Source: an uncultured Actinomycetes bacterium
GTDB lineage: Bacteria; Actinomycetota; Acidimicrobiia; Acidimicrobiales; Microtrichaceae
Length of the DNA: 49,982 nt
Assembly (NCBI GenBank): GCA_903925745.1
Contig: CAIYGQ010000076.1
Location: 1-49,982, forward strand
Direction: 5' to 3'
Shown: in pieces, positions 19,899 to 26,201 of the stretch
Layout: the number at the start of each line of letters is the position of its first letter
Numbering within the stretch: the first letter of the stretch is position 1
Notes under the pieces: generated by a model
The model's input: only the letters and a program-made list of their open reading frames with translations
Databases searched by the model: none
What the model was told of the DNA's origin: nothing
Position numbers and translations under genes: made by a program

Positions 19899-20759
19899 TC
19901 AGCAGACGGGTCGGATCGAGTAGCCGGCGGCACGGATGAGCGGCACCACCTGCCGGGTGGCCTCGACCGTCGCCGGGCGCTCACCGCCTCCGTCGTGCAT
20001 CAGGATCACAGCTCCCGGCTGGAGTTGTCCCATGATGCGCTGGGTGATCGTGTCGGCGGACGGTCGCTGCCAGTCCCTCGTGTCGATGCTCCACATCATC
20101 GTGTGGTCGTCCCCGCTCGCGGCCCGGATCGCCGTGTCGACCCGGTCGTTCACAGCGCCGTACGGCGGGCGGACGCACCGGGTCTCGATGCCGCGGTAGG
20201 CGAGCCACGCGTCGAACGGTCCGATCTCGTTGGCGATCGCCTGGTCACTGAGCCGGGGCAGTTCGGGGTGCGTCGAGGTGTGGTTGGCCACGCGGTGACC
20301 CTCGGCGACGATCCGGTCCAGGAGCTCAGGGTACTGCTGGCTATTGCGACCGATGACGAAGAACGTGGCCTTGACGTCGTTCTCGGCCAGGATGTCGAGG
20401 ATCTGCGGCGTCCAGGTGGGGTCGGGGCCGTCGTCGTAGGTGAGTGACACGACCGGTTCACCGGGGAGCGCGTCGCCCGATTCGACCATGGTGGCCACTC
20501 GTCGACCCGGTGGTCTCGGGATGGTCGTCGTCGTGGTCGTCGTGGTGGTCGTCGTGGTGGTCGTCGTCGTGGTCGTCGTCGTGGTCGTCGTGGCGGCGAG
20601 CGGGCCGCCCTCGCTGAACCCCCACCAGGCGCCGGCCCCCAGTCCCAACGCGGCGAGCACGGCGGTGGTGGCTGCGAGCATCCGCCCGGTGTGTCGCTGG
20701 CGGGCCGGGGTCTCCGACCGCCGACGGCGGACCACCCGGTACTCGTCCTGCTCGACCAC
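19899..20759 (-). CDS. membrane-anchored polysaccharide deacetylase with poly-threonine linker
   Basis: A 286-residue carbohydrate esterase 4 protein. All five NodB motifs are seen: TYDDGPDP (catalytic Asp109, metal Asp110), HTSTHPE (metal His pair), RPPYG, DTRDW and LMHDGG. It probably removes acetyl groups from peptidoglycan or another cell-surface glycan. Residues 1-26 are basic and cytoplasmic, 27-47 form a membrane helix, and then 23 consecutive threonines link it to the extracellular domain. The GTG at 20759 is chosen because TACCAT sits 6 nt upstream; longer frames add an implausible Arg/Pro-rich leader. Confidence 0.9.
   Translation of the reverse strand: MVEQDEYRVVRRRRSETPARQRHTGRMLAATTAVLAALGLGAGAWWGFSEGGPLAATTTTTTTTTTTTTTTTTTTTTTTIPRPPGRRVATMVESGDALPGEPVVSLTYDDGPDPTWTPQILDILAENDVKATFFVIGRNSQQYPELLDRIVAEGHRVANHTSTHPELPRLSDQAIANEIGPFDAWLAYRGIETRCVRPPYGAVNDRVDTAIRAASGDDHTMMWSIDTRDWQRPSADTITQRIMGQLQPGAVILMHDGGGERPATVEATRQVVPLIRAAGYSIRPVC
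20523..20591. repeat. Trinucleotide tract encoding 23 threonines
   Basis: A run of 23 GGT/CGT triplets on the plus strand, read on the minus strand as ACC/ACG threonine codons in the deacetylase. Mixed codons argue for some selection, but slippage could vary its length. Confidence 0.9.
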
Positions 20760-20765
20760 GCCGTG

Positions 20766-20771
20766 ATGGTA
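20766..20771 (-). promoter_or_regulatory. -10 element for leaderless polysaccharide deacetylase gene
   Basis: Read on the minus strand, TACCAT ends 6 nt before the GTG at 20759. Confidence 0.55.
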
Positions 20772-20848
20772 GGGGCTCAGCCGACCAGTTCGGCGACAGC
20801 ATCGTCGTGGCCGAGGCCCCACTCGTCGCCCGCGCGAGACTGGTTGTC

Positions 20849-21784
20849 GTGTCGACCACGTTGGACATCGTCGAGGTGGGACCGCGTGACGGTCTCCAGG
20901 CCGAGGCACATGTGCTGCCGGTGCCGGTCAGGGCGGAGCTGATCCGGCGCCTCGCAGCGACCGGCGTCCGGCGGATCGAGGCGGTGAGCTTCGTTCGTCC
21001 CGACCGGGTTCCCCAGATGGCAGGGGCCGAGGAGACTCTGGCCCAGGCCCGTGCCTCGGTCGGCGGGGAGGTCAGCCTGATCGGTCTCGTCCTGAACGAA
21101 CGGGGACTCGACCGCGCCATCGAGGCGGGTGTCAGTGAGGTCAACACGGTGGTCGCAGCGACCGACTCCTTCGCCCGATCGAATCAAGGCCGCAGCCTCG
21201 ACGAGCTGGTGGACGCCTGCATCGCCGTGTGCCACCGGGCTCGGGCAGCAGGGATTCCGGTCTCGGTCACGGTGTCGACCAGCTTCGGGTGTCCCTACGA
21301 GGGCGAGGTGCCGGTGGCGGACGTGGTGTCGATCGTCGAACGGATCGCTGCGGCGGGCCCGGACGAGCTGTCCTTGGCCGACACGATCGGTTCGGCGGTG
21401 CCGGCCGATGTCGTGGAGCGGTTCTCCGCTGTGCTCCCCGTGATCGAGGAGAACGGAATCACTCCGAGGTGTCACTTCCACGACACGAGGAACACCGCGA
21501 TCGCGAACGTGACCGCAGCGGTCGGCCTCGGGATCGGCGTCATCGACGCGAGCATCGCCGGTTTGGGCGGCTGCCCGTTCGCCCCGGGCGCCTCGGGGAA
21601 CGTCGCGACCGAGGACGTCCTGTACCTCGCATCCCGATCGGGATGGGCGTGCGAGGTCGACCTGCGGGCCGTCCTCGACCTGGTGCCGTGGGTGGCGGAG
21701 CAGGTGGATCATCGGGCCTCGAGTTCACTCGCCGTGGCCGGGGAGTTTCCGCAGACGTCGGGGGGACCCTCGGTCGGCGGATGA
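20849..21784 (+). CDS. hydroxymethylglutaryl-CoA lyase family protein
   Basis: A 311-residue TIM-barrel lyase of the HMG-CoA lyase/DRE-TIM group. The N-terminal EVGPRDGLQ binds metal and the catalytic Arg; HFHDTRNTAIANV supplies the metal His pair; GLGGCPFAPGASGNVATED contains the active-site Cys loop of true HMG-CoA lyases. It likely cleaves HMG-CoA or a close homologue to acetyl-CoA and a keto acid, as in leucine or isoprenoid breakdown. I start at GTG 20849; a weak -10 (GAGACT) lies 7 nt upstream, and the longer frame to 20807 adds unconserved-looking residues. An acyl-CoA ligase follows on the same strand. Confidence 0.9.
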   Translation: MSTTLDIVEVGPRDGLQAEAHVLPVPVRAELIRRLAATGVRRIEAVSFVRPDRVPQMAGAEETLAQARASVGGEVSLIGLVLNERGLDRAIEAGVSEVNTVVAATDSFARSNQGRSLDELVDACIAVCHRARAAGIPVSVTVSTSFGCPYEGEVPVADVVSIVERIAAAGPDELSLADTIGSAVPADVVERFSAVLPVIEENGITPRCHFHDTRNTAIANVTAAVGLGIGVIDASIAGLGGCPFAPGASGNVATEDVLYLASRSGWACEVDLRAVLDLVPWVAEQVDHRASSSLAVAGEFPQTSGGPSVGG

Positions 21785-23584: not shown

Positions 23585-23607
23585 TACGTTCCTCCCGGCT
23601 GAGGAGG
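23585..23607 (+). promoter_or_regulatory. -10 element and strong ribosome binding site of kinase-ABC gene
   Basis: TACGTT at 23585-23590 is a good -10, and GAGGAGG at 23601-23607 is a strong Shine-Dalgarno sequence 6 nt before the GTG at 23614. Unlike many genes here this one has a short leader. Confidence 0.6.
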
Positions 23608-23613
23608 AGCGGC

Positions 23614-25434
23614 GTGGCTGCGTTGGATGCCGCGGTGGACATCGCGGGAGAGGATCTTGATGACGTCGAGTTCGTCGCAAGCGGCGGCTCGGGAACGGTC
23701 TACCGGGCGGTGCAGCGCTCACTCGGACGGATCGTTGCGGTCAAGGTGCTGCACGGAGTCGATCTCCGGGATGGCCGAACCGGACGGGAGGCGCGGGTCC
23801 AGGCCCAGATGTCGTGGCACGCGAACGTGGTCACGCTCTACGGGATCACAGAGCTCGTGGGTGCGACGACCGGATTGGTCATGGAGTACGTCCCCGGTGG
23901 TTCGCTGGCCGGTCGTCTCGTCAACGCCGGCCCGCTGGACATCACGTCGTGGAAGCAGCTCGCCATCGAGCTCGCATCGGCGCTCGCAGCCGCCCACGAC
24001 GCAGGGATCATCCATCGCGATGTGAAACCGTCGAACGTGTTGTTCGCTGCGGACGGCACCAGTCGACTGGCTGACTTCGGCATCTCAGGCACCGGCACAC
24101 GAACACTCGAGGAACTCGAGGCCTCGGTGGCATATGCGGCACCTGAGCTCCTCGAGGGCGACCGGCCATCGGCCACCAACGACGTCTTCGGCCTGGCGCT
24201 CACGCTGCTCGTTGCCGCATCCGGTCGGCACCCGTTTGGTGAGGACGCGCCGGTTGCTGCGCTTGCAGCCAGGATCCAGAGCGAGCGGATTCGCTTCTCG
24301 GATCACGCCCCCGACTTCCCGCCACGGCTCGTCGACTTCATGGATCGATGCCTCGACCTCGAGCCCGACGAGCGCCCAACAGCAGCCGAGATTCGCGACT
24401 TCGTGTCGGCCCATCAAGGGTCGTCGGACGTGAGCCGAACCAGTCGCGTCGAAGCTGGGTCGGTCCTCTCCCTGCGAAATGTCTCGGTGTTCGATGATCG
24501 GTACGGGTTTGAGCAGCGCCTTCTTGATGGCGTCACGTTTCGAATCCCGGCTGGGTCGATCACGGCGCTGGTCGGGGCCAACGAATCAGGAGCGCGCCTG
24601 GCCCTCAAGGTGGCTGCTGGGGAACAGGTCCCAAGTTCGGGCTCTGTCAGATGTGAACAGCGGACTGGCGATTCAGTGGAACAGGACATCCGTGTCGTTC
24701 ACCTCTCCCCATCCCCGCAGTTCTTCCCGGCTCTATCGGTTCGACGAAATCTTGCGTATATGGCGTCGCTGGCCGGCATTCGCCGGGCTGACCTTCAGTC
24801 TCGGGTTTCCGGTGTCGCCGAGCGGGCCTACTTGACCGATCACCTTGACATACGAGCTTCCAAGCTCTCCGAACTGAACCTTCGTCGTCTGCATTTCGCA
24901 ATGGCTCTCGCCGTCGAACCAGACGTTCTACTGATCGATGTAGGTGATCTGGACACCGACGTCACGCTGCGAGAGGAGGTGTTGGTGTCAATTGCGGCCG
25001 CAGCGGGGCGCGGTATCGCGATCGGGCTATTCAGCTCCGACCTCTCCTTCGTAGCGCGCACCGCTGACCGGTTCGTAGCCTTCAAGTCAGGGAGGGTCGT
25101 GGCTGAGGGAAGCAGGGAGGCGATCGCGCAGGCGCACGGCCAGAGGGTCGCCATCGTGCATCTTGATCAACCGACCGATACCTGTGGCTCTGGATGGTTC
25201 TCCAGCGGAGCGCCGAGACTCGAAGGAGGATCCGAGAGCGATCAAGGAACGATCGCCTACGAAATTGGTGCGAACGAGACGATCGATGATCTCTTGCCTG
25301 AGATCCCCGAAGTGATTCGTCGGCGCATCAAGTCGATTGAACTTGGAGCAATCGAGCTACACGAAATCCTTGGGAGGCTGGTGTCTGCCCCTACTTCGCC
25401 GTCGCCGATCCTGGCACTCGGGACGCAGCGATGA
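23614..25434 (+). CDS. Ser/Thr protein kinase fused to a degenerate ABC nucleotide-binding domain
   Basis: A 606-residue fusion. Residues about 15-265 form a Hanks-type kinase with every key element: GGSGTVY glycine loop, VAVK Lys44, HRDVKPSN (Asp136, Asn141), DFG (154-156) and APE (176-178). Residues about 284-505 have the order and length of an ABC ATPase, but the motifs are lost: Walker A reads GANESGARL (no Lys), the Q-loop Gln is absent (LSPSPQFFP), the LSGGQ signature reads LSELN, Walker B ends LLIDVGD without the catalytic Glu, and the switch His is missing (FSSDLSF). No membrane helix is present. About 100 further residues form the tail. The permease gene overlaps its stop by 4 bp. 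Codons, especially in the ABC half, end in A or T more often than in neighbouring genes. Confidence 0.9.
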   Translation: MAALDAAVDIAGEDLDDVEFVASGGSGTVYRAVQRSLGRIVAVKVLHGVDLRDGRTGREARVQAQMSWHANVVTLYGITELVGATTGLVMEYVPGGSLAGRLVNAGPLDITSWKQLAIELASALAAAHDAGIIHRDVKPSNVLFAADGTSRLADFGISGTGTRTLEELEASVAYAAPELLEGDRPSATNDVFGLALTLLVAASGRHPFGEDAPVAALAARIQSERIRFSDHAPDFPPRLVDFMDRCLDLEPDERPTAAEIRDFVSAHQGSSDVSRTSRVEAGSVLSLRNVSVFDDRYGFEQRLLDGVTFRIPAGSITALVGANESGARLALKVAAGEQVPSSGSVRCEQRTGDSVEQDIRVVHLSPSPQFFPALSVRRNLAYMASLAGIRRADLQSRVSGVAERAYLTDHLDIRASKLSELNLRRLHFAMALAVEPDVLLIDVGDLDTDVTLREEVLVSIAAAAGRGIAIGLFSSDLSFVARTADRFVAFKSGRVVAEGSREAIAQAHGQRVAIVHLDQPTDTCGSGWFSSGAPRLEGGSESDQGTIAYEIGANETIDDLLPEIPEVIRRRIKSIELGAIELHEILGRLVSAPTSPSPILALGTQR

Positions 25435-26201
25435 AATCGGTTCTGATCGTGGCTCGCCACGAGGCCGAGCTGCTTAGAAGTCGAGTACCACAGGTGGCGC
25501 TGTACTTCGTGATGCCGTTGGCGATCCTGGCTTTCGTCGAGGGTGGCTTCAGTGTCTATCTGCAGGTCGAGGATCCGTCCGCCGGGTTCAGCGGCGCCGA
25601 CCTCGCGGCTCCGGGACAGGCGACGATGTTCGGATTCATGTGCCTGGCGACGATCGGGTTCCTCTTCCTGGGCGACCACGCCTGGGGAACCTGGAACCGC
25701 GTGCGTTCGCTCGGGATCCGGCCGTGGCAGATCATGGCCGGCAAGTTGAGCGTCGCCTACCTGAACCAGCTCGCGCTGTTCGCCTTCGTGATGGTCGCTG
25801 CGACGGTGCTCTTCGACCTGAGGGTCAGGGGCCCGATCGCAGCGCTCATCGCGGTCGAGTTGCTGCTCGCACTCGTGGCTGTGAGCTACTGCCTGCTCGC
25901 TTGCGCGGTGTGCCGCAACCAGGCCGAGTTCAACGCATTCGCCTACCTGGGCGCACTGGTCATGGCAGGTTTGGGGGGAGCACTCACGCCCTTTGCGACC
26001 CTGCCCGGCTGGGCGCAGACCATTGCGCCGCTCACCCCGACCTACTGGTCGGTGCGAGGATTCGAGACGGTCATCCTTGACGGGGGAGGCCTCGCCGACG
26101 TGGCCGTTGAGCTGGTCGTGCTCGCAGTGTTCGCAGCGGTCTTCGTCACGCTCGGGACGCTGCTGTTCAACGAGGACAAGCGACGGACGACCTGGGCCTG
26201 A
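25431..26201 (+). CDS. ABC-2 type transporter permease
   Basis: A 256-residue membrane protein with six predicted helices, the usual ABC-2 permease layout (first helix about VALYFVMPLAILAFV, last VVLAVFAAVFVTLGTLLF). The cytoplasmic segment HAWGTWNRVRSLGIRPWQIMAGKL matches the coupling-helix region of the family, and LTPFATLPGWAQTIAPLTPTYW matches the conserved loop before helix 5. The ATG at 25431 overlaps the kinase-ABC stop (ATGA), so the fusion protein is the obvious partner. Substrate unknown. It converges on the MBL-Rieske gene 18 bp away. Confidence 0.9.
   Translation: MKSVLIVARHEAELLRSRVPQVALYFVMPLAILAFVEGGFSVYLQVEDPSAGFSGADLAAPGQATMFGFMCLATIGFLFLGDHAWGTWNRVRSLGIRPWQIMAGKLSVAYLNQLALFAFVMVAATVLFDLRVRGPIAALIAVELLLALVAVSYCLLACAVCRNQAEFNAFAYLGALVMAGLGGALTPFATLPGWAQTIAPLTPTYWSVRGFETVILDGGGLADVAVELVVLAVFAAVFVTLGTLLFNEDKRRTTWA

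Follow-up and report, generated by a model that had tools for sequence, protein, structure and literature searches.

Kinases coupled to transporters and degenerate nucleotide-binding domains (NBDs) of ABC transporters are both already known. In Mycobacterium tuberculosis, the Ser/Thr kinase PknF and the ABC exporter Rv1747 are encoded by a two-gene operon and the kinase modulates the transporter, which has ATPase activity, combines NBD and membrane domain in a single chain and possesses FHA domains (PMC3908365). The BceAB transporter forms a complex with the kinase BceS and controls it, and signalling depends on the binding and hydrolysis of ATP by BceA (PMC10314905). In ABC exporters with a degenerate nucleotide site, one site is active and the degenerate one often still binds ATP (PMC7756269).

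The window studied here, a whole 50-kb contig from an incomplete genome (338 contigs, 86% complete), encodes a kinase fused to a degenerate NBD, followed by an ABC-2 permease (Table 1). The fusion, its coordinates and the 4-bp overlap between its stop and the permease start (junction ATGA) agree with the original prediction. PknF/Rv1747, which that prediction named as the nearest theme, remains the nearest Ser/Thr kinase case; there, however, the kinase is separate and the NBD active, whereas the present pair has a fused kinase, a degenerate NBD and no FHA match in Pfam, and falls outside that type. BceAB-BceS is the closer functional model for the adaptor proposed below, although BceS is a histidine kinase that is separate from the NBD and has membrane helices of its own; in the present pair the dead NBD is joined to a Ser/Thr kinase and the permease is of the ABC-2 type, so that it is structurally not of the Bce type either. 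Degenerate-site exporters resemble it in that the loss of consensus residues is kept by selection, but the pair described here has a single NBD, and this one lacks A-loop, Walker A, Q-loop, signature, Walker B Glu and His alike. What appears new is thus the fusion with a fully dead NBD that is the sole NBD beside a permease. The searchable literature yielded no description of a kinase-NBD fusion, and no ABC domain is among the commonly tethered domains named in the accessible part of a survey of 993 prokaryotic Ser/Thr kinases.

Table 1. Features of the fusion gene and the coupled permease gene (window positions).
Feature	Position	Strand	Basis or remark
Ribosome-binding site AGGAGG	23602..23607	+	6 nt ahead of GTG start; sequence reading
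Fusion gene, 606 aa: kinase, pseudo-NBD and C-terminal domain, without membrane sensor part	23614..25434	+	
Hanks-type Ser/Thr kinase domain, residues 9-262	23638..24399	+	Pfam PF00069, PknB-like fold
Degenerate ABC NBD (pseudo-NBD), residues 284-505	24463..25128	+	Pfam PF00005, LptB/MacB-like fold, motif losses
A-loop position, Tyr to Asp (D294), all three fusions	24493..24495	+	NBD alignment
Walker A remnant GANESGARL, residues 321-329	24574..24600	+	Lys, Ser/Thr and Thr lost
Q-loop position, Gln to Pro (P366)	24709..24711	+	NBD alignment
Signature remnant LSELNL instead of LSGGQR, residues 418-423	24865..24882	+	NBD alignment
Walker B remnant VLLIDV, Asp442 retained, Glu443 lost	24925..24942	+	NBD alignment
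Switch-His position, His to Ser (S475)	25036..25038	+	NBD alignment
C-terminal domain, DrrA-type ABC-2 ATPase-like, residues 506-606	25129..25431	+	Aligns with C-terminal regions of intact module NBDs
ABC-2 permease, 256 aa, 6 predicted membrane helices	25431..26201	+	Pfam PF01061, hydropathy scan

The kinase half gave a Pkinase match at residues 20-260 (Pfam, E 1.9e-43), and its model matched PknB in Foldseek. As originally predicted it keeps its catalytic residues, with K44, E59, HRD 134-136, K138, N141 and DFG 154-156 invariant across all three fused homologues, and having the catalytic Lys, Glu, HRD, DFG and the kinase fold it is a Hanks-type Ser/Thr kinase. In the AlphaFold2 model of the fusion (mean pLDDT 85.3) the kinase and ABC folds are both confident, and the pTM of only 0.53 leaves their mutual placement undefined. 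The hydropathy scan recovered a single weak hydrophobic stretch (residues 456-474); this stretch belongs to the folded NBD, and the fusion protein is accordingly expected to have no membrane helix.

That residues 284-505 form an ABC domain is borne out by an ABC_tran match (residues 304-442, E 1.9e-12), the confident fold and the Foldseek matches of this half to the NBDs of LptB and MacB. Fold and family resemblance are therefore present, the catalytic motifs are absent in all three fused copies, and the domain is classed as a pseudo-NBD outside the active ABC ATPase family. Eight related intact NBDs have 67 invariant positions in common; of these, 29 are gone from every one of the three fusions and 24, mostly structural, are kept in all. 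The losses listed earlier (Walker A Lys, Q-loop Gln, signature, Walker B Glu and switch His) recur in every fused copy, so that the window does not hold a lone degenerate example, and the A-loop aromatic residue can be added to the list. In all three, the Walker A Lys and Thr (A327 and L329 in the window protein), the signature Gly-Gly (420, 421) and the Walker B Glu (V443 in the window protein) are gone; every residue expected to handle ATP is, to judge from the alignment, lost. An ESGxRLAL-like motif is conserved among the fusions in place of Walker A, and PQxF..L.V..NL is conserved downstream of the Q-loop. The region after the Q-loop is where NBDs normally meet the coupling helices of the permease. 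Intact motifs occur in the unfused parental NBDs and in none of the fused copies. The TIGR01188 (drrA) match in the fusion protein stops at residue 515, short of most of the C-terminal domain.

With an ABC2_membrane domain (Pfam, E 4.2e-14) and about six membrane helices, the window permease is an ABC-2 permease. It retains 81 of the 82 positions invariant in the permeases of intact modules. No second ABC ATPase is encoded in the 50-kb contig besides the pseudo-NBD, which upholds the earlier claim that no competent ATPase lies beside the permease.

Full-length homologues of the fusion (51% and 49% identical, the NBD degenerate in both) were found in two other genomes of the genus, here G028 and G030. 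Both lie on public MAG records, one of them CAIQNH010000166 (LaPlata bin-394), the other VGBZ01000043 (K_Offshore_80m). In all three species the fusion lies at the same locus, shows the same losses and is coupled to a permease, whose start overlaps the fusion stop in each. As three independent genomes carry it, an assembly error can be ruled out, and some freshwater actinobacteria evidently carry a kinase joined to a predicted dead NBD that would be made together with a permease. Beyond the genus, partly overlapping samples of 397 genomes from the order, 395 from the class and 296 from the phylum yielded no fusion, and a plasmid search found no full-length copy. A single-protein query scan of genome contigs gave no match; the alignment-based contig scan returned the two fused relatives, all other matches being kinase-only or NBD-only at no more than 42% identity. 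The three pseudo-NBDs form one clade (support 100/100) on a long stem, indicating that the loss occurred once, before the three species split.

An unfused module is found in the same bacterial family, for example at L048 and on contig C94 of a fourth species, G029. It comprises a kinase with a membrane helix and a helical C-terminal domain, both absent from the fusion, together with a GNAT-like protein, a separate NBD with Walker A and LSGGQ intact, and a related ABC-2 permease whose start overlaps the NBD stop. Its kinases fall in the same clade as the fused one and its permeases in the same family (75% identical). In G029 an intact-NBD module occupies the locus of the window fusion, between the same AMP-ligase and Rieske genes; its kinase groups inside the fusion clade (support 100/99) and its NBD with the intact NBD of G030. 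No remnant of the helical domain, the GNAT gene or the intact NBD is left at the window locus. On these comparisons the fusion derives from the unfused kinase-GNAT-NBD-permease module. The module is widespread in the family (L048:323-4794, L049-L053, L074, L076) and no description of it was found. The helical domain of its kinase (L048:1343-2194) is predicted as all-helical (pLDDT 88.9), and neither a Pfam family nor, at E < 0.001, a solved fold matches it.

In G030 the left flank and the fusion are on one contig, and an intact module with the right flank is on another; as these are the two flanks of the same locus, fusion and intact module probably stand in tandem. Between the permease genes at the end of L046 (G030:C166) and near position 3565 of L076 (G030:C169), one stretch of 61 to 100 bases is identical, suggesting that gene conversion took place recently or that the assembly broke at a tandem. 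Fusion and intact module in tandem, with subsequent recombination and loss, would account for all four species. Monophyly of the three fusion-linked permeases alone was rejected (p-AU 0.0002), while a clade of these with the other two permeases of the locus was not (p 0.54), so the permeases seem to recombine at the fusion locus.

The reading we favour, with roughly an even chance of being right, is that the dead NBD serves as an adaptor docking the kinase on the permease, in place of the lost membrane and sensor part. In the parental module the kinase carries a membrane helix of its own besides the helical C-terminal domain, and the permease is driven by an intact NBD encoded separately; in the fusion a single polypeptide takes the place of both the kinase anchoring and the separate NBD. 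The pseudo-NBD, without ATPase function but retaining the NBD shape, would bind its cognate permease from the cytoplasmic side and hold the kinase there. The permease would thereby provide the kinase with a membrane anchor and probably also with a sensor, and the permease's ligand-bound or conformational state would reach the kinase through the NBD. We infer the docking, the lack of ATP-driven transport by the pair, the direction of the signal and the kinase target, and likewise the substrate of the permease. Of the two possibilities raised originally, the NBD as docking scaffold is the one favoured, because this domain is conserved in three species, is translationally coupled to a permease and takes the place of the parental kinase's membrane-anchored helical part; a docking part is the simplest reading of a fold kept without ATP binding and co-produced with a permease. 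The presence of ATP-contacting residues among the 29 shared losses, while structural residues stay, points in the same direction, as does the near-complete constraint on the window permease. The latter could, however, also mean that an ATPase acting in trans drives the permease. Also arguing against an adaptor are the apparently much faster evolution of the pseudo-NBD than of the kinase, with the C-terminal domain faster still, and the apparent erosion of the fusion-linked permease in G028.

The main rivals are slow decay and a regulatory role towards sister transporters. Under slow decay, only the kinase would still be used, and the NBD tail and the permease would be passenger relics of a duplicated module. 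A stem of 2.66 changes per column leading to the pseudo-NBD clade is consistent with this, as is the occurrence of the fusion in only half of the genus genomes (3/6). Between the window and its fused relatives, dN/dS is 0.12-0.18 for the kinase, 0.37-0.44 for the pseudo-NBD (about 0.35-0.44 for the three pseudo-NBDs together, two to four times the kinase value) and 0.45-0.66 for the poorly conserved C-terminal domain (21-30% identity), and that of the window permease is 0.16 against G030 and 0.59 against G028, all of these being rough ratios because dS is high and close to saturation. In G028 the permease beside the fusion (L047:9306-10082, G028:C43) has 54 of the 82 invariant positions left and 28 lost; the fusion-linked permease of G030 retains 71 of 77. 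Against decay, the three pseudo-NBDs are 37-52% identical and free of stops and frameshifts, whereas neutral simulation at a pairwise depth of 1.5 left about 13% identity, 21% at most, with 3.8 stops on average. The pseudo-NBD is accordingly constrained, though less than the fused kinase, and evolves under relaxed but purifying selection. New residues common to all three fusions (e.g. S325, R328, L329, A330 and D445) and the almost unchanged window permease also fit decay poorly, and we consider it unlikely.

Alternatively, the fusion may regulate active transporters, competing or mixing with the intact NBDs of sister modules on shared permeases while its kinase phosphorylates those transporters. 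The probable tandem in G030 with its identical permease stretch would provide such partners, and a partner NBD for the fusion is possible in that species; in G028, related permeases also occur at C34, C52 and C79, those at C34 and C79 together with intact NBDs, and the permeases are alike enough for sharing. Against this, the window genome, only 86% complete, shows no other module permease or module NBD, and a heterodimer with the fusion NBD would contain no complete composite ATP site, given that Walker A and signature are both lost. No partner NBD completing such a site was found in the contig or in the closest-match search of this genome. Regulation of this kind is, in our view, similarly improbable.

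It is less probable again that an ATPase encoded elsewhere energises the permease, the fusion merely bringing the kinase near it. The 81 retained permease positions would be explained and dozens of ABC ATPases are encoded in the window genome, but the one nearest to the module NBD is only 34% identical and adjoins its own permease genes, and the docking site would be taken by the pseudo-NBD. The other possibility raised originally, transport driven or gated by kinase activity or phosphorylation instead of ATP hydrolysis, would suit an intact kinase more conserved than the NBD and physically fused beside a coupled permease, yet it found no support and is the least credible reading, as a gate possible and as a drive unlikely, since no case in which phosphorylation drives a transport cycle is known to us, nor was a conserved phosphosite identified.

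Should the adaptor reading hold, the locus may present a new receptor-kinase design, in which an entire ABC permease has been recruited to anchor and to sense, and an NBD free of nucleotide chemistry to serve as the adaptor of a Ser/Thr kinase; this broader proposal is tentative, somewhat short of an even chance. The NBD-permease interface would then be reusable as a signalling connection without an ATP cycle, the two roles of an NBD, docking and hydrolysis, would be naturally separated, and there would be a clean test of whether an ABC permease senses alone, for which the parental unfused module in sister species would be a ready-made control.

A part in anti-phage defence was considered and set aside, as the PADLOC kinase matches (mad6 and PD-T4-6) span essentially the kinase domain alone and the permease has none. 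In the kinase part of the fusion gene dS is 1.4-1.8, about twice that of neighbour genes (0.64-0.79), and the third-position GC of the fusion gene is 0.62-0.77, compared with 0.91 in the AMP-ligase gene. Elsewhere in the window, on the minus strand at 19899-20909, the translation of an open reading frame resembles a polysaccharide deacetylase and has an uninterrupted run of more than 20 threonines after its N-terminal hydrophobic stretch.
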